Origin: Bacteroidaceae bacterium
GTDB taxonomy: Bacteria; Bacteroidota; Bacteroidia; Bacteroidales; Bacteroidaceae
Direction of reading: 5' to 3'
Length of the DNA stretch: 64,000 bases
Assembly (NCBI GenBank): GCA_017541025.1
Contig: JAFXZY010000011.1
Location: 1 to 64,000, forward strand
This document shows positions 23,596-55,700 of the stretch, piece by piece. Each line of letters opens with the position of its first letter. Position 1 is the stretch's first letter. Below the pieces are notes generated by a model. That model did not search any database. It saw only the letters and a program-made list of their open reading frames with translations, and was not told the origin of the DNA. The translations under genes were made by a program, and so were the position numbers.

Positions 23596-23630
23596 AAGCC
23601 TTCCCCTTTCCCCTCCCAAGGAGGGGTGAA
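23596..23630 (-). repeat. Palindromic GC-rich element, intergenic copy (nadD-ispF)
   Basis: The core CCCCTCCCAAGGAGGGG at 23610-23626 is preceded by AAAGCCTTCCCC, matching the consensus of the element family found inside cca, cobT, nadD and cbiHC. Confidence 0.7.
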
Positions 23631-23663
23631 TTGTGGTGCTCTTGTTAATTAGTTTGTCATTCA

Positions 23664-24305
23664 TTATTTTATCTGCCCCCCCTCATGGTTCCCCCCTCTT
23701 TGGGACGGGCTGGGGGAGGCTTTGTAGTATCCCTTTTTCTTTATTTCATCCCATACAGCGGGAGGGAGCCCCTCGCCGTGATAGGTCGGGTTGGTGATCT
23801 TTTCCCTGATTTCAGTGCTGCTGATGTCAATAAGGGGCGTGTCGGCTATGATAACACCTGCAGGAATATCCTTCAGCTCAAATCCTGGTCTGGGATAGAC
23901 TATCACCTGGTGATGTGCCAATATTTCCTTGTACTTGTACCAATGCGGGAAACGTTCCCAGTTGTCGGCTCCAATGACGAGGACGAACTCACGTTCCGGG
24001 TAATCCTGACGCAGATGCTCCAGCGTGTGAACCATATATGAGGGGCGAGGTAGGTGGAACTCGTAGTCGCTGGCCTTCATGTGTGGGATACCCCTGACAG
24101 CAAGCGTGGCCAGTTTCAACCGGGCATTATCGTCTAACAGTTTCTGGTTCACCTTGAAGGGATTCTGCGGAGAGACCAATAGCCACATCTCATCCACAAG
24201 ATGTGTGTCCAGCAGCGCTTGGCTTAATTGGATATGCCCTATGTGGATAGGGTTGAAACTACCTCCGTAGAGACCGGTCTTTATTGAACATTGAACATTG
24301 AACAT
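23664..24305 (-). CDS. nadD: Nicotinate-nucleotide adenylyltransferase
   Basis: NadD adenylates nicotinate mononucleotide in NAD synthesis. The nucleotidyltransferase motif GSFNPIHIGH lies at residues about 15-24, and the C-terminal ISSTEIREKI motif is present. Two ends are unusual. The only in-frame ATG before the conserved region (24305) lies inside a 7-bp tandem repeat, giving the leader MFNVQCSIK. The C-terminus after KKGYYKAS is encoded by a palindromic repeat element, giving PSPSQRGGNHEGGQIK. The enzyme core of about 185 residues is intact, so it is probably functional. It follows gmk in the yicC-gmk-nadD-ispF group. Confidence 0.93.
   Translation of the reverse strand: MFNVQCSIKTGLYGGSFNPIHIGHIQLSQALLDTHLVDEMWLLVSPQNPFKVNQKLLDDNARLKLATLAVRGIPHMKASDYEFHLPRPSYMVHTLEHLRQDYPEREFVLVIGADNWERFPHWYKYKEILAHHQVIVYPRPGFELKDIPAGVIIADTPLIDISSTEIREKITNPTYHGEGLPPAVWDEIKKKGYYKASPSPSQRGGNHEGGQIK
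23683..23725 (-). repeat. Palindromic element inside the 3' end of nadD
   Basis: On the minus strand the copy begins AAAGCCTCCCCCAGCC and runs into a GGGACG..GGGGGG arm. It encodes KASPSPSQRGG at the extreme C-terminus of NadD. Confidence 0.7.
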
Positions 24306-24318: not shown

Positions 24319-24891
24319 TTAGGAGGCCAGGAATTCCCTCAGAATCCTGACAGCTTCCTGTTTTGCTGTTTCCAAATCATCGTTTACCAGGATTCGGTCG
24401 AACTGAGGGGCAAAACTCATCTCGTATGCTGCTTTGCTCAGACGTATCTGTATCTGTTCGGCAGAATCGGTATTGCGGCCTTCCAGTCTGCGGCGCAATT
24501 CCTCAATGCTGGGTGGCTGGATAAATAGGCTTAAGGCCCGGTCGCCATAATACCTCTTTATATTACAGCCACCTTTTACATCTACATCAAAGACCACGTT
24601 CTGCCCGGCTTCCAACTGCTTCTCAACCTGTTCCTTTAGCGTGCCGTAGAAACGATCGGGATATACCTCTTCATATTCCAGGAATTCGTTATTCTGAATA
24701 CGCTGTCGGAACTCTTCGGGCGAGAGAAAGAAATACTCCACTCCATGCTTTTCCTCACCGCGTGGTGGTCGGCTGGTGGCGCTGATGCTGAAGGCCAGCT
24801 TAAACTCTGGGTGTTCCTTCATCAAATACTGAACAATCGTACTTTTTCCGCTACCACTTGGGGCAGAAACAATAATTAGCCTCCCCCCCAT
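24319..24891 (-). CDS. gmk: Guanylate kinase
   Basis: Gmk phosphorylates GMP to GDP. The 190-residue product has the P-loop SAPSGSGKST near residue 10 and the GMP-binding SISATSRPPRGEEKHGVEYFF. The DVDVKGGCNIKRYY, LFIQPPSIEELRRRLEGR and ILVNDDLETA segments follow in the usual order. The start follows the yicC stop by one base and the stop TAA runs directly into the heptamer repeat that carries the nadD start. Confidence 0.96.
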   Translation of the reverse strand: MGGRLIIVSAPSGSGKSTIVQYLMKEHPEFKLAFSISATSRPPRGEEKHGVEYFFLSPEEFRQRIQNNEFLEYEEVYPDRFYGTLKEQVEKQLEAGQNVVFDVDVKGGCNIKRYYGDRALSLFIQPPSIEELRRRLEGRNTDSAEQIQIRLSKAAYEMSFAPQFDRILVNDDLETAKQEAVRILREFLAS

Positions 24892-24892
24892 A

Positions 24893-25768
24893 TTACATCA
24901 CATTAAGAACTTGTTCCTTAATCTGCTCTAACTCGTCTTTCATCTTTACCACGATGTTCTGCATTTCGGCCTGATTGCTCTTGCTGCCCGTAGTATTGAT
25001 TTCGCGGCCCATTTCCTGAGCGATAAAGCCCAGTTTCTTACCCTGTCCGTGGCCTTCCTCCATTGTCTGACGGAAATAATGCAGATGGTTGGTCAGACGT
25101 TGCTTCTCCTCGTTGATATCTAACTTCTCAATGTAGTAAATCATCTCTTGCTCCAGACGGTTACGGTCATATTCCACTTCGGGGATAGCTTGCAGAGCAT
25201 CTACCAGTTTCTGGCGAATTTTCTCCGTACGACTTGTCTCGTATGGCTCGATGCTGGCTAGCAGAGCAGCTATATTGTCCAGTTTCTCCTCAAACTTCTT
25301 CTGCAAAGCCACACCTTCCTGTTTACGGAAGTCCACCAATTGCTGTATGGCTTTCTCCACAACGCTTTTGGCAACGGCCCATTCCTCTTCTGTCAGTTCC
25401 TGAATATCAGTTTTGTTCAAGACATCGGGCATACGTAACAGAACGGTCCAGATGTCCTCTGGTTTGTCAATGTCGTATTTCTCGGCAATGTCTGTAATTT
25501 GTTTGTAGTAATTGGCTACCAGTTCACCGTTTATAGAGGCTGCGTTTTGGGCTTCTGTCTGCTCTATCCAAAGATTGAACTCAACTTTTCCGCGTTCAAG
25601 TGCTTGCGCAATGAGAGCACGCACTTCCATCTCCTTTTCCCGGTAGATGGGAGCCAGTCGGGTGGACAGATCCAGCGCTTTACTATTCAGTGATTTTACC
25701 TCTGCATTTATCTTTTTTCCTTGGAATTCGGCCGAGGCTTTTCCGTATCCCGTCATTGATTGTATCAT
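24893..25768 (-). CDS. YicC-family endoribonuclease
   Basis: YicC/YloC proteins are stress-related endoribonucleases or RNase adaptors. The 291-residue product begins MIQSMTGYGKASAEF, the family signature, followed by NAEVKSLNSKALDLSTRLAP. It ends with the C-terminal DUF1732-type region, with RLTNHLHYFRQTMEEG, GKKLGFIAQEMGREINTTGSKSNQAEMQNIVVKMKDELEQIKEQVLNV in order. I place the start at the ATG at 25768: the longer frame to 25810 would run through the -7 box at 25788-25795. The adjacent gmk is the conserved neighbour of yicC in many bacteria. Confidence 0.92.
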   Translation of the reverse strand: MIQSMTGYGKASAEFQGKKINAEVKSLNSKALDLSTRLAPIYREKEMEVRALIAQALERGKVEFNLWIEQTEAQNAASINGELVANYYKQITDIAEKYDIDKPEDIWTVLLRMPDVLNKTDIQELTEEEWAVAKSVVEKAIQQLVDFRKQEGVALQKKFEEKLDNIAALLASIEPYETSRTEKIRQKLVDALQAIPEVEYDRNRLEQEMIYYIEKLDINEEKQRLTNHLHYFRQTMEEGHGQGKKLGFIAQEMGREINTTGSKSNQAEMQNIVVKMKDELEQIKEQVLNVM

Positions 25769-27171: not shown

Positions 27172-28479
27172 ATGCCATCATTTATCATAGAAGGCGGACA
27201 TCGGTTGAAAGGGGAAATCATTCCTCAGGGTGCCAAGAACGAAGCTTTGCAGGTGCTCTGTGCCACTTTGCTTACCTCTCAGCCTATTCGTATTCAGAAC
27301 CTTCCCGATATTGCCGATGTTAATAATCAGATTTGTCTGCTCAGAGATATAGGCGTCCGCATTGTTAAGAATGCCCCTGGCGATTATACTTTTCAGGCTG
27401 ATACTGTTAATACCGACATCCTGCATACCGATGATTTCCTGATTCGTTGCGGAAGTCTGCGTGGTAGCGTTATGCTGCTTGGACCGCTCTTGGCACGATT
27501 CGGTTGGGCTGAGGTGGCTCGCCCGGGTGGTGACAATATTGGTCGTCGACGCCTGGATACCCATTTCTTGGGCTTGCAGAAGTTAGGTGGTCAGTTCCAT
27601 TATGATGCAGAGCGTGGTGTCTTTACCATAACCACAGATGGCTTGAAGGGTTGCTACATGCTTCTCGATGAGGCTTCTGTAACAGGAACGGCCAATATCG
27701 TGATGGCAGCTGTTTTGGCAGAAGGAACAACCACCGTTTACAATGCTGCCTGCGAACCTTATATTCAGCAGTTGTGCCGATTGCTCAACAAAATGGGTGC
27801 CCGTATCAGTGGTATAGGCAGTAACCTGCTTACCATTCAGGGCGTTACAGAGTTGGGAGGCGCAGAACATACCATCCTGCCTGATATGATTGAGGTGGGC
27901 TCCTTCATCGGAATGGCCGCTATGGTGGGTGATGGCGTACTCATTAAGGGCGTAGCTTACGACGAGTTGGGAATCATTCCTGATACTTTCCGTCGGTTGG
28001 GTATTGAGGTACAGCACAAGGGTGACGATATCTTTGTGCCCCGACATGAGCGTTATCAGATTGAGTCGTTTCTCGACGGCTCTTTCATGACCATCTCAGA
28101 TGCTCCCTGGCCAGGACTCACACCCGACCTTCTGAGCGTCCTGCTTGTTGTCTGCACTCAGGCTAAGGGTTCTGTGCTTATTCATCAGAAGATGTTCGAG
28201 AGCCGACTCTTCTTCGTGGATAAGCTTATAGATATGGGAGCACAGATTATCCTTTGTGATCCCCACCGTGCTGTTGTGGTAGGACACAATCATAAACTAC
28301 CTCTTCATGCACGTCGTATGACAAGTCCTGATATCCGTGCCGGTATAGCCTTGCTCATTGCTGCTATGAGTGCAGAAGGAACCAGCCGGATAGAGAATAT
28401 CGGTCAGATAGACCGCGGTTACCAACACATTGAGGAGCGTCTGAATGCCCTTGGTGCAAATATAAAGAGAGTAGAGTAA
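27172..28479 (+). CDS. murA: UDP-N-acetylglucosamine 1-carboxyvinyltransferase with Asp in the catalytic Cys position
   Basis: MurA transfers enolpyruvate from PEP to UDP-GlcNAc, the first committed step of peptidoglycan synthesis. The 435-residue product has GAKNEAL with Lys22 and Asn23 of the substrate site. In the flexible loop it reads ARPGGDNIGRRRLDTH, so Asp121 replaces the cysteine (Cys115 in E. coli) that fosfomycin alkylates; the codon is GAC at 27532-27534. Asp variants at this place in other bacteria (for example mycobacteria and chlamydiae) remain active and resist fosfomycin. The rest of the fold is intact, so an active, fosfomycin-insensitive enzyme is expected. It sits in the tsaB-cca operon. 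Confidence 0.96.
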   Translation: MPSFIIEGGHRLKGEIIPQGAKNEALQVLCATLLTSQPIRIQNLPDIADVNNQICLLRDIGVRIVKNAPGDYTFQADTVNTDILHTDDFLIRCGSLRGSVMLLGPLLARFGWAEVARPGGDNIGRRRLDTHFLGLQKLGGQFHYDAERGVFTITTDGLKGCYMLLDEASVTGTANIVMAAVLAEGTTTVYNAACEPYIQQLCRLLNKMGARISGIGSNLLTIQGVTELGGAEHTILPDMIEVGSFIGMAAMVGDGVLIKGVAYDELGIIPDTFRRLGIEVQHKGDDIFVPRHERYQIESFLDGSFMTISDAPWPGLTPDLLSVLLVVCTQAKGSVLIHQKMFESRLFFVDKLIDMGAQIILCDPHRAVVVGHNHKLPLHARRMTSPDIRAGIALLIAAMSAEGTSRIENIGQIDRGYQHIEERLNALGANIKRVE

Positions 28480-28506
28480 CCCCCTCCTTATTACCCGAGG
28501 GGAGGG
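28480..28506 (+). repeat. GC-rich inverted repeat between murA and rimM
   Basis: CCCCCTCC (28480-28487) faces GGGGAGGG (28499-28506). It starts at the murA stop codon and looks like a diverged or partial member of the palindromic element family. There is no T run, so a terminator is unlikely. Confidence 0.45.
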
Positions 28507-28519
28507 AAAAGTTGATGAT

Positions 28520-31699: not shown

Positions 31700-32041
31700 A
31701 TGAAACATCTTCTTTCCATATTAGTAGTGCTGCTTCTGCTCTGTGCATGTGGCGGTAACGATGTCAATGAGAAGGCAGCCCAGATGCTTTCCGATGCTCG
31801 TGTAGCTTATTTTCATAAACGCTATGCCGAGGCTCGTGATTCTATTCTTTCCTTGCGTCAGAAGTATCCTACAGCTATTGAGGCACGCAAGCAGGCAATC
31901 CTTTTGCTGGACAGCGTAGAGATGGGTGCTGCTGCTGATAGCTTGCAATATGTGCAGGGTGAGGAATGGGAACGCTTGCATATCAAGCAGCAGTTCTTCG
32001 AGCGTAAACTTCTGGAGGACAAAAAGAAAGACGCAGAATGA
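31700..32041 (+). CDS. Small predicted lipoprotein with a helical repeat
   Basis: The 113-residue product has a lipoprotein signal, LLLLCACGG, with the acylated Cys near residue 15 to 17. A helical, TPR-like stretch follows (KAAQMLSDARVAYFHKRYAEARDSILSLRQKYP) and a coiled, lysine-rich end. No enzyme motif is seen. Its stop overlaps the cca start as ATGA. The upstream gap, 31653-31699, contains three copies of the TTGAACA/TTGAATA heptamer word repeat. Function unknown; an envelope role is likely from the lipobox. Confidence 0.8.
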   Translation: MKHLLSILVVLLLLCACGGNDVNEKAAQMLSDARVAYFHKRYAEARDSILSLRQKYPTAIEARKQAILLLDSVEMGAAADSLQYVQGEEWERLHIKQQFFERKLLEDKKKDAE

Positions 32042-33588
32042 AGTTTCTGACAGAAGAGGAACTCGCACATCTGTTCTGCACCCCTATGTTTCAGGCCATC
32101 GGCGAGGTGGCCGACGAGTTGGGGCTCCATTGTTATGCAGTGGGCGGATATGTGCGTGATCTTTTCTTGGAGCGTCCCTCTAAGGACATAGACTGCGTGG
32201 TTGTGGATGCCTCCCCCGTCCCCTCCCAAGGAGGGGAGAAAGAAGGTCCTGGTATTCGTGTGGCTCAGGCATTGGGCAAACGGTTGGGCAGGGGAGCGCA
32301 CGTGAGTGTTTTCCGTAACTTTGGCACTGCACAGGTTAAGTGGAAAGGCCAAGAGGTGGAGTTTGTGGGTGCTCGCAGGGAGAGCTATAGTCATGACAGT
32401 CGTAAGCCTATTGTTGAGGACGGAACGCTGGAGGATGATTTGGACCGTCGCGACTTCACCATCAACGCTTTGGCTTACTGTCTTACTTCCGAGGGACTGG
32501 TAGATGGTAAGCGGCTTATTGACCGCTTTGGCGGACTCTTGGATATGGAGGACGGACTTATTGCTACGCCTCTCGATCCCGATATCACCTTTAGCGACGA
32601 CCCCTTGCGCATGATGCGCTGCATACGTTTTGCGACCCAGTTGCATTTCCAGATCGAGGACGAGACACAGGAGGCACTCAGTCGTAATGCGGAGCGTATC
32701 AAGATTATCTCTCAGGAGCGTATCATTGACGAGCTCAACAAGATAATGCTTTCTCCTACCCCCAGTATCGGGTTTGTAGAGTTGAGCCGTTGCGGCCTGC
32801 TCCCACTCATTTTCCCCGAAATGGCAGCGCTGGAAGGCGTAGAGGTCCGGAATGGTCGTGCCCACAAGGACAACTTCTATCATACCTTAGAGGTGTTAGA
32901 TAATGTGGCAAAAGCCTCCCCCATCCCCTCCCAAGGAGGGGTGAGTTCTCAACAGTTCTCCTCTCCTTTGGAGAGGTCGGGTGAGGCTTTACTCTGGCTC
33001 CGCTGGGCTGCCCTCCTGCACGATATAGGCAAGCCACGCAGCAAGCGTTGGGAGGAAAAGGTAGGCTGGACCTTCCACAACCATAATTATATAGGTCAGA
33101 AGATGGTCGCCCCCATTTTCCGACGCATGAAGTTGCCACTCGATGAACGCCTGACGTATGTTGAGAAGTTGGTGGGCCTGCACATGCGTCCCATAGCTAT
33201 TGCCGATGATGTAGTCACAGATTCTGCCGTGCGCCGACTGTTGTTTGAGGCAGGCAAGGATATTGACGACCTGATGCTACTTTGCGAGGCTGATATCACC
33301 AGCAAGAATATGCAGAAGAAGCAGCGCTTCCTGGATAACTTCCAGTTGGTGCGTGAAAAACTGGCTGACCTTCAGGCTCGTGATAACTACCGCACTTGGC
33401 AGAACCCTATAACAGGTGAGGAAATCATGGAAACCTTTGGTCTCAAGCCTTGTCGTCAGGTTGGTATCCTCAAACAAGCTGTCAAGGATGCCATCTGGGA
33501 TTCCGTTATTCCCAACGACCATGATGCTGCCTTTCAGTTCATGCTCCAGAAAGCCAAGGAAATGGGGCTTGTTCCAATTGATAATTGA
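32038..33588 (+). CDS. cca: CCA tRNA nucleotidyltransferase with HD domain, carrying two repeat-encoded inserts
   Basis: This enzyme adds or repairs the CCA end of tRNAs. The N-terminal polymerase-beta-like head has AVGGYVRDLFLERPSKDIDCVV with the GG and DxD motifs, then RRDFTINALAY. The HD phosphohydrolase part has LLHDIGKPRS. The 516-residue length exceeds the 470-480 residues I expect. The excess is explained by two inserts read from palindromic elements: SPVPSQGGEKEGPG near residues 59-72, just after the catalytic strand, and SPIPSQGGVSSQQFSSPLE near 294-312, before the HD motif. Both keep the frame open, and all conserved motifs survive, so activity is plausible. It is the last gene of the tsaB operon. 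Confidence 0.93.
   Translation: MKFLTEEELAHLFCTPMFQAIGEVADELGLHCYAVGGYVRDLFLERPSKDIDCVVVDASPVPSQGGEKEGPGIRVAQALGKRLGRGAHVSVFRNFGTAQVKWKGQEVEFVGARRESYSHDSRKPIVEDGTLEDDLDRRDFTINALAYCLTSEGLVDGKRLIDRFGGLLDMEDGLIATPLDPDITFSDDPLRMMRCIRFATQLHFQIEDETQEALSRNAERIKIISQERIIDELNKIMLSPTPSIGFVELSRCGLLPLIFPEMAALEGVEVRNGRAHKDNFYHTLEVLDNVAKASPIPSQGGVSSQQFSSPLERSGEALLWLRWAALLHDIGKPRSKRWEEKVGWTFHNHNYIGQKMVAPIFRRMKLPLDERLTYVEKLVGLHMRPIAIADDVVTDSAVRRLLFEAGKDIDDLMLLCEADITSKNMQKKQRFLDNFQLVREKLADLQARDNYRTWQNPITGEEIMETFGLKPCRQVGILKQAVKDAIWDSVIPNDHDAAFQFMLQKAKEMGLVPIDN
32209..32236 (+). repeat. Palindromic element, in-frame copy 1 in cca
   Basis: GCCTCCCCCGTCCCCTCC followed by CAAGGAGGGG; encodes ASPVPSQGG within the nucleotidyltransferase head. 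Confidence 0.8.
32911..32990 (+). repeat. 80-bp composite palindromic element (REPIN-like), in-frame copy 2 in cca
   Basis: It opens with AAAGCCTC and closes with GAGGCTTT. The left arm carries the hairpin CCCCTCC-CAA-GGAGGGG and the right arm CCTCTCC-TTT-GGAGAGG, so two hairpins face each other in inverted orientation, as in REP doublets. It is fully translated within cca. Confidence 0.8.
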
Positions 33589-33695
33589 TAATTGACAGTT
33601 GAGAATTAACAATTTACAATTAATAATTAACAATTAACAATTAACAACGGAATCTCTAACCTCTAACCTCCAACCTCTAACCTTTAACCATTAAT
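33589..33695. repeat. Tandem word repeats after cca
   Basis: The gap between cca and the GH66 gene is almost wholly short repeats. First come variants of TTGATAATTGA and AATTAACAATTAACAA (33579-33646), then TCTAACCTCTAACCTCC-type units (33653-33690). No promoter or terminator stands out. Confidence 0.85.
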
Positions 33696-35745: not shown

Positions 35746-36792
35746 TTAGAAATATTTTGTGATTTGGGCGTTCTGGAAGTTGTTCATCTCGTTCACCATA
35801 CGGACAGCGCTGTCGATGATGGGGAAGGCGCAGAGGGCTCCCGTTCCTTCACCCAAGCGAAGGCCGAGGTGGAGTAGGGGCTTGGCTTCCATTGCTTCCA
35901 GCATCTTTTTGTGCCCGCTCTCATCGCCGCAATGGGTGAAAATCATGTATTCTTGGGCGGCAGGATAGAGGCGTGTGGCAGCAAGGGCGCAGGCTGTCAT
36001 GATAAAGCCGTCCACTAAAATAATAAGGTGCTGCTCGGCTGCACGGAGCATGGCGCCGATGGCGGCAACCATTTCAAAGCCGCCGAAGTAACGGACAGCC
36101 CCTTCCAATCTCCCCCCAAGGGAGGAGGCTTTATATCTTTCCATAGCTTTGGAGAGCACTTCGTATTTGTGGCGGATGCCTTCATTGTTAAGACCTGCTC
36201 CTGCACCGATACACTCAGCGAGGGGTATATTGCAGAAGAGGTGCATCCAGATGCTGCTGGGCGAGGTGTTGGCAATGCCCATCTCACCTATGCAGAGTAC
36301 ATGGCAACCCTCTTGTAGGCAGTCATCAACTAACTCGACGCCTACCATTATGGCATGGTCAAATTCCTCCTTACTCATTGCAGGCTCGTACAGAAAATTC
36401 CTGGTGCCCCGGGCAATCTTTCGGTCGATGATGCCTGGGACGGCAGAAAGGTCGTAATCGACACCTACATCCACGATGCGCAGTTTGAAACCGTGCTGTC
36501 GGCAGAACATATTCACACCGCCGCCGCCACGGGTAAAGTTTATCATCTGTTGCCAAGTAACCTCGCGTGGCGAAACACTGACACCTTCGCGTTCTATTCC
36601 GTGGTCGCCTCCCAAAAGCAGATGGCAGGGATGGGACAGACTTGGCTCCAATGTCTGCTGAATCAGACATATCTGTAAGGCCAGTTCTTCCAGGCGACCC
36701 AACGAACCTTTTGGCTTGTTCAGGTTGTCTATCTTATCTTGTATCGATGTCTGCAACGACTTGTCAACCGATTGTATGTTAAATTCTTTCAT
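35746..36792 (-). CDS. cobT: Nicotinate-nucleotide--dimethylbenzimidazole phosphoribosyltransferase
   Basis: CobT makes alpha-ribazole phosphate, the lower-ligand precursor of cobalamin. The 348-residue product has NKPKGSLGRLEELA at the N-terminus, GGDHGI, and the MGIANTSPSS region. Near the C-terminus is RLGEGTGA, whose Glu is the catalytic base in the Salmonella enzyme. An in-frame palindromic element encodes KASSLGGRLEGA near residues 219-230, between a helix and the conserved VRYFGGFEM segment. The product is otherwise complete. It is the last gene of the cbiA-cobS-cobU-cobT run. Confidence 0.95.
   Translation of the reverse strand: MKEFNIQSVDKSLQTSIQDKIDNLNKPKGSLGRLEELALQICLIQQTLEPSLSHPCHLLLGGDHGIEREGVSVSPREVTWQQMINFTRGGGGVNMFCRQHGFKLRIVDVGVDYDLSAVPGIIDRKIARGTRNFLYEPAMSKEEFDHAIMVGVELVDDCLQEGCHVLCIGEMGIANTSPSSIWMHLFCNIPLAECIGAGAGLNNEGIRHKYEVLSKAMERYKASSLGGRLEGAVRYFGGFEMVAAIGAMLRAAEQHLIILVDGFIMTACALAATRLYPAAQEYMIFTHCGDESGHKKMLEAMEAKPLLHLGLRLGEGTGALCAFPIIDSAVRMVNEMNNFQNAQITKYF
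36099..36132 (-). repeat. Palindromic element inside cobT
   Basis: On the minus strand AAAGCCTCCTCCCTTGGGGG opens the copy. It encodes KASSLGGRLEG in frame. Confidence 0.7.
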
Positions 36793-36856
36793 CTCTCTAA
36801 CCTTTAACCTCTAACCTTTAACCTTTAACCTCTAACCTTTAACCCTTAACCCTAAC
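36793..36856 (-). repeat. Tandem TTAACCTCTAACC repeat overlapping the cobU stop
   Basis: Units of TTAACCT/CTAACCT fill the cobU-cobT gap and extend into cobU: its final codons (VRVKG and the stop) are read from the repeat on the minus strand. Confidence 0.85.
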
Positions 36857-37384
36857 TGCTATTCCACTAACCATGAGGATGACCTCATCGGCATTCTGTG
36901 CAATGTACTGGTTCATCCATCCTTGCAGGTCGGTAAAGCGGCGTTGCAGGGCGTTATCGCTAACTCCGCCGCTACCAATCTCGTTGGTAACGAAGATGTA
37001 GGTCGCATTGGGCTGGGTAAATTTGTTGAATTCGGTCTTTGCGGCAACAAGGGCGGCATCAACATTTAAGTTCCCCTCGTCCACGGGAGCGGGGTTTAGG
37101 TCAGGGGTACGGCTGATGAAGTTGGTAAGCCATAGTGTCACGCAGTCGATGACAACAACACGACCTGTTAAGTCGTGTCGGCTCAGATGGATTTCCTCTT
37201 CTATGTTGGTCCATTGCGGGCCGCGGCGCTCCTGATGACGGCGTACGCGCTCGCGAAACTCTTCATCCCAAATATGCGCCGTAGCCAGATAAACGGGATT
37301 ATCACTTAGTTGCAAAGCCAGTTCCTCAGCCTTACTGCTTTTTCCTGAACGCTGTCCGCCAGTTATTAGAACTATTTTCTTCAT
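36839..37384 (-). CDS. cobU: Adenosylcobinamide kinase / adenosylcobinamide-phosphate guanylyltransferase
   Basis: CobU phosphorylates adenosylcobinamide and activates it with GMP. The 181-residue product has the P-loop TGGQRSGKSSKAEELA near residue 8, ATAHIWDEEFRERVRRHQERRG with the guanylylated His region, and VVVIDCVTLWLTNF. The C-terminal NEIGSGGVSDNALQRRFTDLQGWMNQYIA is typical. The last residues VRVKG and the stop codon are encoded by a word repeat. It lies between cobS and cobT, as in many nucleotide-loop operons. Confidence 0.95.
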   Translation of the reverse strand: MKKIVLITGGQRSGKSSKAEELALQLSDNPVYLATAHIWDEEFRERVRRHQERRGPQWTNIEEEIHLSRHDLTGRVVVIDCVTLWLTNFISRTPDLNPAPVDEGNLNVDAALVAAKTEFNKFTQPNATYIFVTNEIGSGGVSDNALQRRFTDLQGWMNQYIAQNADEVILMVSGIAVRVKG

Positions 37385-37525
37385 TGAACATTGAACATTG
37401 CATTGAACATTAGTTTACAGTTTACTGTTGTTAATTATTTTTGTTATCGTTGACGTTATCGTTGACGTTAATAATTCTTCACTCTTGAACTCCTTGAACC
37501 CTTGAACTCTTAAACCCTTGAACTC
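37385..37525. repeat. Cluster of four word-repeat families between cobS and cobU
   Basis: In 141 bp there are TTGAACA heptamers (37383-37411), a GTTTACAGTTTACTG stretch, a GTTATCGTTGACGTT hexamer run (37441-37470), and CTTGAACTCTTAAACC units (37481-37536). No gene or promoter is seen. Confidence 0.85.
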
Positions 37526-45436: not shown

Positions 45437-46828
45437 ATGAAAAAGATAATTGTTGCAGGTATAGGTCCTGGTAGTGCCGAAGATATTACTCCCGCTGTTC
45501 TGGAGGCTGTGCGTCAAAGCGATGTGATAGTTGGGTACAAATACTATTTTAGGTTTATCGAACCTTATCTCACACCTGGTACGGAGTGTATCGACAGCGG
45601 TATGCGTCAGGAACGCCAGCGTGCTGAGGAAGCCGTCGCCCTTGCCAAGGAAGGAAAGACGGTTTGTGTTATCAGTAGTGGCGATGCGGGTATTTACGGA
45701 ATGGCGCCTCTTATCCTGGAGATGGACCCCACAATGGATGTACAGGTGCTTCCTGGTATCAGCGCTTTCCAAAAGGCTGCATCTTTGCTGGGTGCTCCCA
45801 TAGGGCATGATATGTGCATCATTTCCCTCAGCGACCTTATGACTCCTTGGCAGCTGATAGAGAAACGTATTCAGGCAGCTTCCCTTGGCGATTTCGTTAC
45901 AGCGGTTTATAATCCTAAGAGTCATGGGCGATATTGGCAGCTACATCGCCTAAAGGAACTTTTCCAGCAACAGCGGGCTGGCACAACTCCCGTGGGTTAT
46001 GTCCGTCAGGCAGGAAGGCCGGAACAGGAGGTGAAGCTGACCACTTTAGGTGATTTCGACCCCGAAGATGTGGATATGTTCACGGTCATCCTCATTGGTA
46101 ATTCGCAGTCATACATAGAAGGTGGAAAATTCATCACACCACGTGGCTACTTCCGCGATTTTCCCCTCTCTTCGGAGGGGACTAGGGGGAGGCTCATTAT
46201 GAACGAATCGTTCCGCACCATTCTTTCCGAGATGAAGCATCCCGATGTGCCAACGTGGCGACTCTGGCCTTTGTTGCATGCCATTCATACCACGGTGGAC
46301 TTTGGAATGGAAAAATACCTGTGGATGGATGATCGCGCTACGGAAATCATATATAATAAGATAAAGGATGGTACATTGCGCCATATCGTAACCGATGTGA
46401 CGATGGCTGCCAGCGGCATCCGCAAGGGAGCCTTGGAACGTTTGGGGGTGGAGGTGCATTGCTATATCAACGACCCTCGGACAAGGGAAATGGCCGAGGA
46501 GCAGAGTATTACCCGCAGTCAGGCTTGTATGCAACTGGCAGCAGAAGAATATTCCGATGCCCTCTATGTGGTGGGAAACGCGCCTACAGCTCTCTTTGAG
46601 ATATGCGACCTGACACGTAAGGGTAAGATGCAGCCTGCAGGAATCATAGCCGCTCCAGTGGGGTTTGTCCATGTCTGTGAGAGCAAACATGCAGTCAAGA
46701 CGCTGAAACAGATTCCCAAAATCATTGTTGAGGGCAGGAAGGGCGGTAGTAACCTTGCGGCTACGCTGTGCAATGCCATCCTTACATACGATGACGCAGA
46801 ACAAATTAAACCAGGGAGAGACCTGTGA
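45437..46828 (+). CDS. Fused precorrin-3B C17-methyltransferase (CbiH/CobJ) and precorrin-8X methylmutase (CbiC/CobH)
   Basis: The first 240 or so residues are an SAM-dependent tetrapyrrole methylase of the CbiH/CobJ type: VAGIGPGSAEDITPAV, CVISSGDAGIYGMAPL and VTAVYNPKS. It contracts the ring while methylating C17. The last 205 or so are the CbiC/CobH mutase, which moves the methyl from C11 to C12 (TDVTMAASGI, VVGNAPTALFEI, PVGFVHVCESK). The junction, FPLSSEGTRGR at about residues 241-251, is encoded by a palindromic repeat. Met255, just after it, could be the original start of a separate CbiC. The fusion therefore seems to have arisen by, or been bridged by, the repeat. Confidence 0.93.
   Translation: MKKIIVAGIGPGSAEDITPAVLEAVRQSDVIVGYKYYFRFIEPYLTPGTECIDSGMRQERQRAEEAVALAKEGKTVCVISSGDAGIYGMAPLILEMDPTMDVQVLPGISAFQKAASLLGAPIGHDMCIISLSDLMTPWQLIEKRIQAASLGDFVTAVYNPKSHGRYWQLHRLKELFQQQRAGTTPVGYVRQAGRPEQEVKLTTLGDFDPEDVDMFTVILIGNSQSYIEGGKFITPRGYFRDFPLSSEGTRGRLIMNESFRTILSEMKHPDVPTWRLWPLLHAIHTTVDFGMEKYLWMDDRATEIIYNKIKDGTLRHIVTDVTMAASGIRKGALERLGVEVHCYINDPRTREMAEEQSITRSQACMQLAAEEYSDALYVVGNAPTALFEICDLTRKGKMQPAGIIAAPVGFVHVCESKHAVKTLKQIPKIIVEGRKGGSNLAATLCNAILTYDDAEQIKPGRDL
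46161..46194 (+). repeat. Palindromic element at the cbiH-cbiC fusion point
   Basis: TTCCCCTCTCTTCGGAGGGG, a spacer, then GGGGGAGGCT: the reverse complement of the family consensus. It is translated as FPLSSEGTRGRL between two enzyme domains. Confidence 0.8.
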
Positions 46829-52091: not shown

Positions 52092-53101
52092 AGCGTGGCG
52101 TATTGTTCTTGTCTGTTTGTGTGCTTATTATCCTGCTGGTGATAGCCAATGTCTTGCTGGGTTCTGTCTCGTTGCCCGTAAGCGATGTTGTTGACACCCT
52201 CTTGGGCGGTACAGCCGCTCCCGTTACTACCCAGAATATCATCCTTAAGAGTCGTTTGCCTCAGACGCTGGTGGCTGCTTTGGCAGGTGCATCCTTGGCT
52301 GTTAGCGGCTTGGAGATGCAGACCGTCTTCCGCAATCCCCTGGCGGGTCCCACAGTGTTGGGTATCAGCAACGGAGCTTCCTTGGGTGTTGCCTTTGTCC
52401 TGCTCTTAGGAGGCAATATCGCGGGTGTAGCACTCAGTAAGATGGGTCTTGTGGGCGAGATGGCCCTCACCTTTGCCGCCATTGTAGGAGCCATGTTAGT
52501 CATGTTGCTCATAATCAGCGTAAGTAGGCATGTTAGCAGTAGCGTAACCTTACTGATTATAGGTGTGATGATAGGCTATGTGGCCAATGCCCTGATAGGT
52601 GTGCTCAAGTTCTTCAGCGTAGAGGAGGACATCCGTTCTTACGTGGTATGGGGGATGGGCAGTTTCCAGCGTGTCAGTCCCGAACGTTTTATGCCCTTTG
52701 CCGTTAGTACAGGTATTTTATTGGTGCTATCACTGCCCTTGGTCAAGAGTCTTAACCTTATGCTGCTGGGCGATGGTTATGCCCGCAATTTAGGTCTGAA
52801 CCTCCGTCGGGCTCGCCTGTTGGTTATTGCCAGTTCGGGGATGCTCTGTGCCGTCACCACAGCCTATTGCGGTCCTATTGCTTTCTTGGGATTGGCTGTT
52901 CCGCATCTTTGCAGGGGGATTATTGGCACCAGCGACCATCGTCTGCTTCTTCCCTTCTCGCTACTTTCAGGTGCCGTTCTGGCTCTTTTGTGCCATCTTA
53001 TCGCCCGGCTTCCGGGTTTTGAGGGAGCCCTGCCTGTCAACAGTGTAACAGCCCTTATCGGTGCCCCCGTCGTTTGCTGGGTACTGTTCAAGAGAAAGTG
53101 A
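52088..53101 (+). CDS. BtuC/FecCD-type ABC transporter permease
   Basis: The 337-residue protein has about ten hydrophobic helices and the FecCD family markers RLPQTLVAALAGASLAVSGLEMQTVFRNPLAGPTVLGISNGASLG and GPIAFLGLAVPHLCRGIIGTSDHRLLLPFSLLSGAVL in order. It would form the inner-membrane channel for the BtuF-like protein just upstream. The ATPase (btuD) normally encoded next is missing: the gene is followed by a repeat array and then a convergent glycosidase gene. Either an ATPase elsewhere serves it or btuD has been lost from this end of the operon. Confidence 0.92.
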   Translation: MKRGVLFLSVCVLIILLVIANVLLGSVSLPVSDVVDTLLGGTAAPVTTQNIILKSRLPQTLVAALAGASLAVSGLEMQTVFRNPLAGPTVLGISNGASLGVAFVLLLGGNIAGVALSKMGLVGEMALTFAAIVGAMLVMLLIISVSRHVSSSVTLLIIGVMIGYVANALIGVLKFFSVEEDIRSYVVWGMGSFQRVSPERFMPFAVSTGILLVLSLPLVKSLNLMLLGDGYARNLGLNLRRARLLVIASSGMLCAVTTAYCGPIAFLGLAVPHLCRGIIGTSDHRLLLPFSLLSGAVLALLCHLIARLPGFEGALPVNSVTALIGAPVVCWVLFKRK

Positions 53102-53105
53102 TAGG

Positions 53106-53302
53106 TTATAGTTTACTGTTTACCGTTTAAACGTTTTTTGTTTTCGTTATCGTTGACGTTAACGTTGACGTTTTTTGTTTTCGTTATCGTTGACGTTATC
53201 GTTGACGTTGACGTTGACGTTTTTTGTTTTTGTTTTCGTTATCGTTGACGTTAACGTTGACGTTTTTTGTTTTTGTTATCGTTATCGTTGACGTTGACGT
53301 TA
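53106..53302 (-). repeat. Long hexamer repeat array (GTTGAC/GTTATC/GTTTTT units)
   Basis: About 200 bp consist of 6-bp units GTTGAC, GTTATC, GTTAAC, GTTTTC and TTTTGT in changing order, preceded by a GTTTACTGTTTACCG stretch. Read on the minus strand, the array is the 3' end of the GH43 gene. Confidence 0.93.
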
Positions 53303-55421
53303 TTACCGGCTTAATCCCCTTGTGGGTAGGCTGCACCTGATTGATGGTACCGTCCTTGGCAAAGGTTAATTTGTCAATGCACACTTCGCGGTGGAAGCCG
53401 GGGCCGTTATTCAGATAGTTCTTGTTGATGCGGTGATAGACGATATACCACTCGTCGGTTCCGGGTATATTGACTATTGAGTTGTGGCCCGTGCCATAAA
53501 TCTCCTCTTCGGGTTTCTGAATGATTACGATGGGCTTTTCTGCTACCTTGATAGGTCCCTTTGGCGACTTGCTGGTTCCGTAGGCAACGTGGTAGTTCTT
53601 GGCTCCCGTATCATCGACGCTCCACAGGAAGTAGTAAAGCCCCTTCCTATAGAATACATAAACGCCCTCGCGGAAAGCGTAGTCGGCCAACGAGCCTCCC
53701 TTGGGAGTAATGGTGAATTCTTCTTCTCCGATGCTCGTCATATCGTCGGAGAGCAGACGGTAGTGCAGGTGTCCGTTACCATAATACAGATAGGTCTGGC
53801 CGCTCTTGGGGTCGGTAAACACATCTGAGTCTATCATCTGACCGCCTGAGGTGGTGGTGAACAATGGTTTTTCCGAGGCTTTGAAAGGCCCTGTGGGAGA
53901 ATCGGCCACAGCTACACCTAAGGTCTTTTTGTTTAGCTCTGGGTTGTGGGCGCTGAAGAAGAAGAAATACTTCCACTTGCCGCCAACCTGTTTTTCCTCG
54001 ATACAGGGTGCCCATGCATTGCCCGATGCCCAAGGAGCATCACCGCCTGCAGAAAGGTTCAGGATGGTTCCTTCGTTGCGGAAGTGTACAAGGTCGTCGG
54101 ACGAGAAAACATCGAAGCTATATCCGCCCCAGCCTGGATAGCCGTCGGTAGTGGGGTAAATGTAGAAGCGTCCCGTATTCTTGGAATACAGCACCTCGGG
54201 GTCGGCATGGAAGTCGGGCAGAGCAGGATTTCCGTAAACCGAAACTTCCACTGGCTGCTGGCATGCCTGCATGAAACTGGTTATGCGTAGCTGCCATTCG
54301 GCCTGACTGCGGACGTCGTATTGGCTCCAAGCTGAACCAAAGTAATAGGTAAACGGCTCATCGTTGTGCAGATTCTGGTGAATACCCACGGCATGGCCGG
54401 CATTCCCGTTTGCGGGTTGCTGGTACATCAACTTCTTGGTTGTGCTGATGCCTGCAGGATAGAGTGTGGCAACGTAAATCTGGCAGTTGTATCGTTCGGG
54501 GTCGCTTGTGGGGTCGGCATAGTGCATATAGTCGCGTTCCACCACCACGCTTTTTGTGTCGGCTGCATGAATCACGAAACCCGATGCCACATCGGCAGGC
54601 TTCTTAAGACCCGTGTACCAAACCTTCATCTGGCAGAAATTGGAACCGCGGTCGAGTGTTACGATACGATGTTCGGTAACCGTTCCTAAGGAACCACGAT
54701 CCGTGGGGGCAAAGTCCATCTGTACAGAAACGCGCAGGGGGCCTTGGTCGAGCACCTTATACGTATCGTAGCACCAAGGGAAGAGGAGCGAGTCGCCCAC
54801 CATGATGGATGGTGTACCACAACCCAGCGTAGGACCTACGTTATAGCAATCCATTCCCATACCATGGTTCAGGTGGTAGCTGGTAAGTGTGGTTATCAAT
54901 TCGGCTTCTCGTTGTTTGCCTTGCTTTTTCAGGGCAGAAATCTCTGGATGGCGCGAATACTCCAGTTTGTAGATATTGTCGACAATCATATCGGGCGTAC
55001 TCTTCAGCCAGATATCTATACCATATCCTTGTTGTCCCATCCGCTGAAGGGCGGGACCATAGAAGCGGTAAGCAGTGCGGTCGTTCTCAATCATAATGTC
55101 ATCCAACCGCTCGGGGTAATGTTTGACAAACACGAATGGCTTAGCCGTAGAGGGCTTGCCGGGTTTCAACTTGTACGTAGCTGTACCGTTCGGTCGGATG
55201 CTGGCAAAAAGCAGCAGCTTACCGTCGTATGTCCATTGATAGGGCTGTTCTACGCCGAATGTGTCGAACAGCACCAACTGCGAATCTACCTTAAGATTCT
55301 CCACCTCTACTACTTCATGGCGTTGTAATGCCGTGTTGTTCTTTAATACAATGGTCTGGCTCTTTGCCGAAAGACTCAGCAAAAGGCACAAAAGGGGCAG
55401 AAATACGGTTTTATGGTTCAT
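53196..55421 (-). CDS. Secreted DUF4861-GH43 fusion with a repeat-encoded C-terminus
   Basis: A signal peptide (to about residue 22) is followed by a DUF4861 domain (to about 395; note GMGMDCYNVGPTLGCGTPSIMVGDSLLFPW). A GH43 five-bladed propeller follows, with its usual acidic residues: Asp407 in HADPEVL, Asp531 or 533 in MIDSDVF, and Glu585 in FREGVYVFYRKG. GH43 enzymes remove arabinose or xylose from plant polysaccharides; DUF4861 has no function I can state with confidence. The normal end seems to be near THKGIKPVI. After it come about 30 residues read from a hexamer DNA repeat (NVNVNVNDNENKNKK, then RQRQRQR). Export by Sec is likely; no type IX tail remains. Confidence 0.85.
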   Translation of the reverse strand: MNHKTVFLPLLCLLLSLSAKSQTIVLKNNTALQRHEVVEVENLKVDSQLVLFDTFGVEQPYQWTYDGKLLLFASIRPNGTATYKLKPGKPSTAKPFVFVKHYPERLDDIMIENDRTAYRFYGPALQRMGQQGYGIDIWLKSTPDMIVDNIYKLEYSRHPEISALKKQGKQREAELITTLTSYHLNHGMGMDCYNVGPTLGCGTPSIMVGDSLLFPWCYDTYKVLDQGPLRVSVQMDFAPTDRGSLGTVTEHRIVTLDRGSNFCQMKVWYTGLKKPADVASGFVIHAADTKSVVVERDYMHYADPTSDPERYNCQIYVATLYPAGISTTKKLMYQQPANGNAGHAVGIHQNLHNDEPFTYYFGSAWSQYDVRSQAEWQLRITSFMQACQQPVEVSVYGNPALPDFHADPEVLYSKNTGRFYIYPTTDGYPGWGGYSFDVFSSDDLVHFRNEGTILNLSAGGDAPWASGNAWAPCIEEKQVGGKWKYFFFFSAHNPELNKKTLGVAVADSPTGPFKASEKPLFTTTSGGQMIDSDVFTDPKSGQTYLYYGNGHLHYRLLSDDMTSIGEEEFTITPKGGSLADYAFREGVYVFYRKGLYYFLWSVDDTGAKNYHVAYGTSKSPKGPIKVAEKPIVIIQKPEEEIYGTGHNSIVNIPGTDEWYIVYHRINKNYLNNGPGFHREVCIDKLTFAKDGTINQVQPTHKGIKPVITSTSTITITKTKNVNVNVNDNENKNKKRQRQRQR

Positions 55422-55613: not shown

Positions 55614-55700
55614 GGGTTAGAGGTTATAGGTTATGGGTTATAGAAACCTTGAAACTTTTAACCTTTTAACATTTTAACCTTTTAACCTTTTAACTGTCCC
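55614..55700. repeat. GGTTATAGGTTATGGGTTATAG / TTTTAACC word repeats
   Basis: Units of GGTTATAG and then CCTTTTAA fill the gap between the terminator and the stop codon of the large surface protein gene. Confidence 0.8.

Follow-up and report, generated by a model that had tools for sequence, protein, structure and literature searches.

Introduction

Repetitive extragenic palindromic (REP) sequences and their inverted doublets (REPINs), as described in Pseudomonas and E. coli, are moved by REP-associated tyrosine transposases (RAYTs) of the HUH/Y1 type. Miniature inverted-repeat transposable elements (MITEs) are short, gene-less copies with the terminal inverted repeats of parent insertion sequences, and a further kind of mobile system is represented by I-Bth0305I, an EDxHD/Vsr-like homing endonuclease. 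A DUF559 gene has been assigned to the EDxHD homing endonuclease family (PMC9403480). Here we examine a stretch of 64,000 nucleotides (hereafter the window), the first 64 kb of the 117.6-kb contig JAFXZY010000011.1 (C88) of a Bacteroidaceae bacterium (GCA_017541025.1; 3.28 Mb, 84% complete), where REP-like palindromes are read in frame inside conserved genes. Comparison with related genomes revealed that such palindromes also occur as inverted pairs enclosing a DUF559 gene (REP-DUF559-REP). We estimate a probability of roughly two in three that this cassette is an autonomous element and that the palindromes of the window are its non-autonomous remnants and derivatives; that DUF559 itself drives the mobilisation is what we infer from the sequences. 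A preliminary description of the window, which had proposed a small non-autonomous mobile element, overlooked DUF559 as the gene lying between such palindromes.

Results

REP-like palindromes were confirmed at all places in the window that the preliminary description had named. Two of the elements are facing pairs (REPINs of 128 and 80 bp) and the others are single, with the consensus unit AAAGCCTCCCCC-nn-CCCCTCC-nAA-GGAGGGG-nGAA. The nearest relatives of the source genome are uncultured Bacteroidaceae/Prevotellaceae assemblies, the closest ones from goat reticulum and sheep rumen (G numbers below denote genomes of relatives, L numbers individual loci, and "own" refers to the source genome). 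Alignment of the window with G051 revealed a 445-bp insertion at window position 24891, composed of a REP, an open reading frame and an inverted REP, and the frame was identified as DUF559 (PF04480). DUF559 matches are present in 100 of the 139 genomes of the genus and in 109 of the 198 genomes of a phylum sample, and the own genome has four copies. The same nested anatomy was found in 28 of 30 genus loci (one per genome), which carry a + REP at most 300 bp upstream of the gene and a - REP downstream, with a distance of 474-727 bp between the outer ends (at most 558 bp in 23 of them). At L346 the pair around DUF559 has its strands swapped, and L354, without a REP-model match, has around the gene a perfect inverted repeat of 44 bp that belongs to another REP-like family. 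DUF559 was the only gene observed between the arms. On contig C89, three of the four own copies (at 8572, 16680 and 20646) are clustered within about 12.4 kb.

The arms were also assessed independently of REP family, by locating DUF559 with a hidden Markov model (HMM) and scoring the best inverted repeat between its 300-bp flanks; 103 RAYT-like and cca loci served as controls (median 18, 95% point 24, maximum 47). Scores at the genus loci had a median of 63.5, with 46 of 46 above the control 95% point and 33 above the control maximum (this set holds one duplicated locus, L350/L364), and for the own loci these counts were 4 and 2 out of 4. The control 95% point was also exceeded by 36 of 45 phylum loci and by 6 of 10 plasmid loci from other phyla, the ten on which generality beyond the phylum rests. 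For the phylum the HMM located all 47 genes, of which 45 were tested; it replaced a regular expression that had found 17 of 30, with 3 of the 17 over the 99% point of a cross-locus null. Within single loci, where 900 bp were available on both sides, inner flanks outscored outer flanks in 40/40 genus, 4/4 own, 37/40 phylum and 7/10 other-phyla cases. A DUF559 gene with a flanking inverted-repeat pair (score 53) was seen between sufB and sufC on a Sphingomonas plasmid (L428).

Judged by alignment, relatives with and without the cassette differ at two loci by a unit that ends at the outer REP ends. At gmk, the unoccupied G081 reads TAA-ATGGCTAGGCTTTTAATT and the occupied G051 reads TAA-TTAGCC-REP-DUF559-REP-GGCTAATTATAG; this comparison defines the left end of the element exactly and the right end only to within a few bases, and nothing in G051 corresponds to the start codon of the empty form. 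On the own contig C89 the unit is a 512-bp REP-DUF559-REP that lies between ACCATAA and TATTGAG. Neither locus shows an evident target-site duplication. In the window, the start of gmk (24880..24895, - strand) is the site where sister species hold the cassette in frame with Gmk; its sequence, ATGGGGGGGAGGCTAATT, resembles an element end and is possibly a decayed scar, an assignment left uncertain by the gmk of G045, which is read as empty and starts ATGGGGAAGCT. In L183 (G056) a REP-like peptide, HPSPERTEGG, forms the start of Gmk and may be what a deletion has left of the element.

These unit differences bear on the idea that REPs merely gather beside DUF559 genes, as terminators or at preferred places of insertion, without forming a single element. 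REPs are indeed common in the own genome, with many of their clusters outside genes by a codon-usage heuristic. However, the arms are paired, inverted and close to the gene on both sides, they are more alike within a locus than between loci (medians 60 vs 25), and the whole unit differs between presence and absence at two loci, which makes such a gathering very improbable.

Whole cassettes, like the short REPs described below, are carried in frame within conserved genes, as far as can be judged from the reading frames and domain matches. In a Pfam scan of 10 of the 30 loci with long frames, DUF559 was found between domains of one host protein in LeuS (L377), MetH (L397), HsdR (L381, L383) and a type ISP enzyme (L375), and beside host domains in an NAD epimerase (L339), HsdM (L391), a DNA methylase (L376) and Gmk (L350); in L378 it is the sole domain recognised. 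REP-like peptides (PSPxGEG, PPLEGTGEA) connect the parts in several of these proteins. No splicing domain was among the Pfam hits of the ten scanned loci at E<=1e-8. A splicing domain is larger than the 14-42 residues that separate DUF559 from the host domains in MetH (L397) and Gmk (L350), so these gaps are too short to hold one. At gmk the frame is open from DUF559 into Gmk, which would therefore be produced either fused to the nuclease or by translation from a codon that lies within the element. In G051 and G047 the closest in-frame start ahead of the Gmk P-loop is an ATG in the tail of DUF559, and four other loci have an in-frame TTG closer to the P-loop, in or beside the REP; the proposal that Gmk is made only as a fusion was dropped in view of this closer TTG.

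The distribution of the palindromes follows that of the gene. Among the 139 genus genomes, scored for REPs over 49 candidates per genome, 98 of those with DUF559 have REPs and 2 do not, compared with 22 and 17 of those without it (Fisher p 2e-9); in other words, 98 of 120 REP-positive and 2 of 19 REP-negative genomes are DUF559-positive, with weak matches accounting for two of the positives. Six residues of the domain (E16, D44, E55, H61, D70 and R73) are invariant across 107 DUF559 sequences and D57 is conserved in 98%, and these invariant positions are the putative catalytic residues of a PD-(D/E)XK-type nuclease. Among PDB entries the domain matches 3hrl at E 9e-19, the mobile intron protein 3r3p giving only E 0.098. 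A rather unlikely alternative, although the strongest that we considered, is that the cassette moves as a unit with DUF559 as its cargo, the ends being mobilised by a RAYT-like enzyme or by host replication and repair. DUF559 nucleases do occur in other settings: the Caulobacter protein VsrA contains DUF559 and is reported to cause SOS induction in a methylase mutant (PMC12907096). Moreover, both DUF559 and RAYT-like genes occur in 75 of the 139 genomes, and every one of these 75 has REPs. Against a passenger role stand the invariance of the putative catalytic residues, the single kind of gene seen between the arms, a REP distribution that tracks DUF559 more strongly than it tracks RAYT-like genes, and RAYT-like genes whose flanks are without these REPs.

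The classical explanation, that the palindromes are REPINs moved by a RAYT, was implied by the preliminary description, which expected a RAYT/IS200-type transposase with the same palindrome on its flanks. Searches were made with Pfam Y1_Tnp, with a group-4-like RAYT query and with a profile of long RAYT-like proteins, and REP models were run on the flanks of RAYT-like genes. The Y1_Tnp family is positive in 62 of the 139 genus genomes and gave no match in the own genome at E<=0.001; the profile is positive in 95 of 139, and one full-length RAYT-like protein and two partial ones are encoded in the own genome, with a match to NCBIfam REP_Tyr_transpos at E 3.7e-10, below the cut-off. Around RAYT-like genes (35 loci, the own ones and 32 of relatives) there are 11 REPs in 129 kb compared with 51 in 229 kb of nadD-cca-cobT blocks (12 of the 14 blocks fetched), a demanding control since these blocks include known elements. 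The inverted-repeat scores of RAYT-like flanks are at background (median 17, 29 loci). On the genes present in the fragmentary assemblies, a cognate RAYT flanked by the same REP was rejected as a candidate: RAYT-like genes exist, and their surroundings show no REP enrichment. The layout of the REPINs, the RAYT-like proteins of the own genome and a co-occurrence of REPs with RAYT-like genes (89/6 with and 31/13 without them, REP-positive/REP-negative, p 8e-4) speak for mobilisation by a RAYT, as does the observation that within the 39 DUF559-negative genomes REPs are found in 14 of 20 RAYT-like-positive and 8 of 19 negative ones. Weighed against the lack of REP enrichment around these genes, the missing Y1_Tnp match and a consensus foot that is not GTAG (of 78 genomic copies 27 start with AAAG, 8 with GAAG, 7 with AGAC and 1 with GTAG), we consider this classical explanation unlikely, more so than a passenger role of DUF559.

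The long RAYT-like HUH proteins (333-466 aa) share a conserved C-terminal region and are encoded at L301:1468-2745 (own C44:49354-50544), L193, L196, L199 and L203; four of them were scanned and gave no Pfam match in that region. The own copy has an internal tandem repeat, and in L300:1486-2658 the RAYT-like C-terminal part is fused to what we take to be an ORF6N-type N-terminus.

The dispersed nature of the family, as suspected from the window, is borne out by the rest of the genome. A covariance model built from five window units (R1) gave 133 matches at E<=10, those of the window included, among 150 scored of 644 candidates in the own genome, a copy outside the window having an E value of 1e-11. 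A BLAST search with the cca REPIN gave 27 places at E<=1, the query itself included, and exact copies of the 12-mer AAAGCCTCCCCC number 5, of which 2 are in the window, compared with 1 for its reversed control. By eye, 78 fetched copies form one broad family with about five sub-families, a few copies being weak; these include F1 (the window type), F2 (AAAGCCTCACCCC..CCCCTCTCCGAGGAGAGGGG), F3 (AAAGCCCCCTCC..CTCCCCCAAAGGAGGAG) and others, and further facing pairs are present elsewhere in the genome. The fetched DNA and the window together contain 114 matches at E<=0.5, corresponding to 111 distinct places (6 in the window) and 93 clusters. By the codon-usage heuristic, 23 of the 93 clusters are gene-internal and in frame, in a sample biased to high scores. 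Bacterial genomes are mostly coding, and for this reason the gene-internal copies are a tolerated minority. The two in-frame elements of CTP synthase (residues 159-171 and 483-497) fall within the two Pfam domains of that protein, and in glutamate synthase the element lies between two domains. The other hosts with Pfam support are an RsmF-like methyltransferase, CobQ, a class-V aminotransferase, OMP decarboxylase, GH43, GH67 and GH97; AcrB also holds an element, outside the 23 clusters. The earlier suggestion that the element is adapted to being tolerated inside coding sequence found no support beyond base composition: open frames per unit number 4.92 of 6, compared with 4.81 of 6 in dinucleotide shuffles (105 units; mononucleotide shuffles were also run), and coding adaptation was dropped as an explanation.

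A comparison of own REP matches with the arms of eight DUF559 loci (four own and four gmk-type loci of relatives) indicates, as far as arm similarity goes, that short REP sub-families resemble the arms of particular DUF559 copies. Three of the 114 matches were excluded as parts of the compared loci, and 71 of the remaining 111 reach a score of 36, a threshold set by the author, with one of the eight. The best fit is to the arms of L082 (own, F2) in 35 cases, to F1 arms of relatives in 25, to L406 in 8 and to L405 in 3. All six scored window units match gmk-type elements of relatives best (L347 or L358).

The units of the window and their sites were compared with those of relatives, and the orthologous sites at nadD, cca and cobT and at 28479 proved empty or differently filled, in agreement with the earlier proposal of insertion. 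The 80-bp REPIN (32911..32990), with inverted units at 32911-32946 (+) and 32955-32990 (-), has the layout previously ascribed to it. It is located in cca (32038..33588, + strand; tRNA nucleotidyltransferase with Pfam PolyA_pol, PolyA_pol_RNAbd and HD) at a site here termed S2, just before the HD domain core, and is translated in frame as KASPIPSQGGVSSQQFSSPLERSGEA; its terminal inverted repeats are AAAGCCTC/GAGGCTTT. A single unit (32206..32241, +) lies in frame at site S1 of the same gene and is read as DASPVPSQGGEK. The 128-bp REPIN (23596..23723) is found at the 3' end of a nadD-like gene (23664..24305, - strand; Pfam CTP_transf_like; this gene name and those of cobT and cbiHC are taken from the preliminary description). 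Here the palindromes at 23596-23630 and 23683-23725 are real; rather than separate elements, as first listed, they are the two facing units of one REPIN. Nor is nadD read through: its frame covers the right unit and part of the spacer, which supply the C-terminus and the stop (KASPSPSQRGGNHEGGQIK*). In-frame reading holds for both cca elements, for cobT and for the cbiHC linker. In cobT (35746..36792, - strand; Pfam DBI_PRT) it concerns a single diverged unit (36097..36132, -) that is read as KASSLGGR and gave no match with the REP models used. Another diverged single unit (46158..46196, -; model E 0.05) lies in frame within the CbiH-CbiC linker of the cbiHC fusion (45437..46828, + strand), between Pfam TP_methylase (residues 3-207) and CbiC (254-450). 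The suspected diverged copy near 28480 is a single REP (28479..28517, +) directly after a stop codon, present as an insertion that measures 39 bp against G081 and 44 bp against G084.

G084 and G051 cleanly lack the nadD REPIN, of which G081 has a diverged copy, the flanks being too diverged among relatives for a target-site duplication to be read. In cobT, the REP of the window is replaced in G081 by a heptamer-rich insert of about 117 bp. At cca S2 the 80-bp REPIN is shared with G081 and G047, and other REPs or a heptamer array are found in G051, G084 and G045; at S1, heptamer arrays are present in G081, G051, G045 and G047, and G084 has neither REP nor heptamers. Depending on the sister species, a given Cca place may thus be occupied by the REPIN of the window, a different REPIN, a single REP or an unrelated heptamer array. 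Among 116 non-redundant Cca proteins (130 loci, 14 removed as redundant), inserts of at least 6 residues number 40 at S1, 44 at S2, and 12 at S3 with 2 adjoining; other places have 1 to 3 each. The insert labels REP and HEPT were set by hand, with some automatic hairpin calls overridden (for example L018, L029, L034, L048 and L264, which became "other") and with L025 and L038 set to HEPT. On a quick tree of insert-free Cca columns, in which 42 of the 113 inner branches have weak support, a minimum of 22 changes at S1 and of 28 at S2 is required by the four-state labels; at S2 the contrast of REP with no REP needs 14 and heptamers need 7, and REP-or-heptamer versus neither needs only 9 (S1) and 11 (S2). 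We take the Cca and cobT sites to be permissive loops that have been hit repeatedly, which is not proof of site-specific targeting. The clade that comprises Bacteroides, Phocaeicola and Paraprevotella is represented by 42 rows, none of them with a REP- or heptamer-labelled insert at the cca sites and 3 with other inserts, so the same residues do not recur in these distant orthologues.

The confinement of inserts to a few permissive Cca places (S1, S2 and S3) would suit a reading of the in-gene stretches as ordinary, fast-evolving and incidentally GC-rich loop or linker insertions. We judge this the least probable of the explanations considered: the in-gene DNA belongs to the same palindrome family as other genomic copies, REP pairs included, and sister species swap the REP for heptamer arrays or for nothing. 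It is contradicted for the REP-bearing copies and may hold for the Cca inserts labelled "other" (25 at S1, 15 at S2).

Heptamer arrays in the loops that hold REPs were seen at cca S1/S2 and cobT of relatives (L171, L173-L175), sometimes as inverted pairs; TAACTGA heptamers have been published for some Bacteroidetes (PMC4679880). Window and L173 (G051) cca are near-identical in the middle (alignment columns about 250-900) and divergent on both sides, a mosaic that suggests between-species recombination. The S3 region of L175 (G047) has a 42-bp in-frame tandem duplication, possibly an assembly artefact. Short-unit tandem arrays (AATTGAC, AACCTCT and GTTATCGTTGAC types) occur in and between window genes at 33569-33694, 36778-36863, 37395-37469, 53098-53313 and 55641-55694.

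Discussion

In the explanation that we favour, the full form of the element would be an inverted REP pair enclosing a single DUF559 nuclease gene of the PD-(D/E)XK kind, related to Vsr and to the EDxHD homing endonucleases. DUF559 would recognise the REP hairpin or its junction and nick or cut DNA, and the element would be copied in during repair or replication, much as homing endonuclease genes spread; bare REP pairs may be moved in trans, as RAYTs do for REPINs. No splicing would be needed, the element persisting where it lands in frame in a loop, a linker or a terminus, and such survival would be possible because the pyrimidine/purine-rich arms rarely contain stop codons. At gmk, where the host start codon is gone, translation would have to start inside the element (as a nuclease fusion or from a codon in the element end), so that loss of the element could be costly.

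Several observations weigh against this explanation. The C89 site in G081 is not cleanly empty, the same flanks enclosing 107 bp with heptamer-like repeats and no DUF559. Outside the genus, the control maximum was exceeded by no more than 11 of the 45 phylum loci and 3 of the 10 from other phyla. When arms of different loci of the same set are paired as a null, its 95% point is exceeded by only 30/46 genus, 3/4 own, 25/45 phylum and 5/10 other-phyla loci, and its 99% point by 11 of 43; this null is a harsh one because sub-families are shared between loci. One own DUF559 copy (L355) has poor arms (score 28), and 40 of the 111 own REP matches fit no tested arm. The own assembly, 84% complete, yielded no DUF559 of the F1 type, so the link of the window sub-family runs through sister species. 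REPs without a DUF559 match occur in 22 of the 139 genomes, although the genomes are fragmentary assemblies and such absences are weak. Finally, unrelated heptamer arrays occupy the same gene-internal loops as REPs, which implies that the in-gene sites reflect tolerance and not only targeting.

A broader proposal, which we hold tentatively and with slightly less than even confidence, is that a DUF559 gene bounded by inverted REPs constitutes a widespread, unrecognised class of mobile element. Such an element would mobilise itself as well as bare REP pairs, would supply the enzyme for RAYT-less REP families and would persist unspliced and in frame in essential genes, the putative hosts being Gmk, LeuS and MetH for the full form and Cca and CTP synthase for the short form, with the gmk start taken over. 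If true, this would join two loose ends, the RAYT-less REP palindromes and the "endonuclease domain-containing / DUF559" proteins, which are common and whose role is unclear, and would add a nuclease-based class to REP mobility. The recurring proline/glycine-rich peptides of unrelated proteins (PSPSQGG, LTPNPSPRERG) would then be translated ends of mobile elements, and the cassette would offer a directly testable selfish gene persisting in essential genes without splicing. The open-access full-text literature yielded no account of REP-DUF559 pairing, by which its absence from print is not proven.

Among the known systems, the proposed REP-DUF559 element resembles MITEs and their parent insertion sequences in its terminal inverted repeats and gene-less short copies, features displayed by the REPIN at 32911-32990 with its inverted ends and lack of coding capacity of its own; in contrast to them, the presumed parent has a nuclease gene and not a DDE transposase, with no clear target-site duplication at two loci. 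With Rickettsia palindromic elements and intragenic REPs it shares palindromic repeats in frame in unrelated genes (PMC3733652); the difference lies in the full form with its own enzyme gene found here, the Rickettsia elements and CGTC repeats being compared by description only. The EDxHD/Vsr-like homing endonucleases belong to the same nuclease superfamily, with conserved acidic and His residues and conserved genes as hosts, whereas here no intron or intein was found, REP arms are present at both ends and the nuclease remains an in-frame domain of the host protein. An IS200/IS605 or RAYT element would have an HUH/Y1 transposase between its ends, where PF04480 (DUF559) is found instead. The likeness to REPIN/RAYT systems (REPtrons) is the most extensive, comprising short palindromes, inverted doublets (as at 32911-32990 and 23596-23723), several sub-families per genome, some of them resembling the repeats that flank one enzyme gene, and bare pairs as the presumed non-autonomous forms. 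Unlike in those systems, the consensus foot is not GTAG, a sizeable minority of copies resides in genes, and the flanked gene encodes a PD-(D/E)XK nuclease in place of an HUH/Y1 transposase and lies between both arms as one unit.

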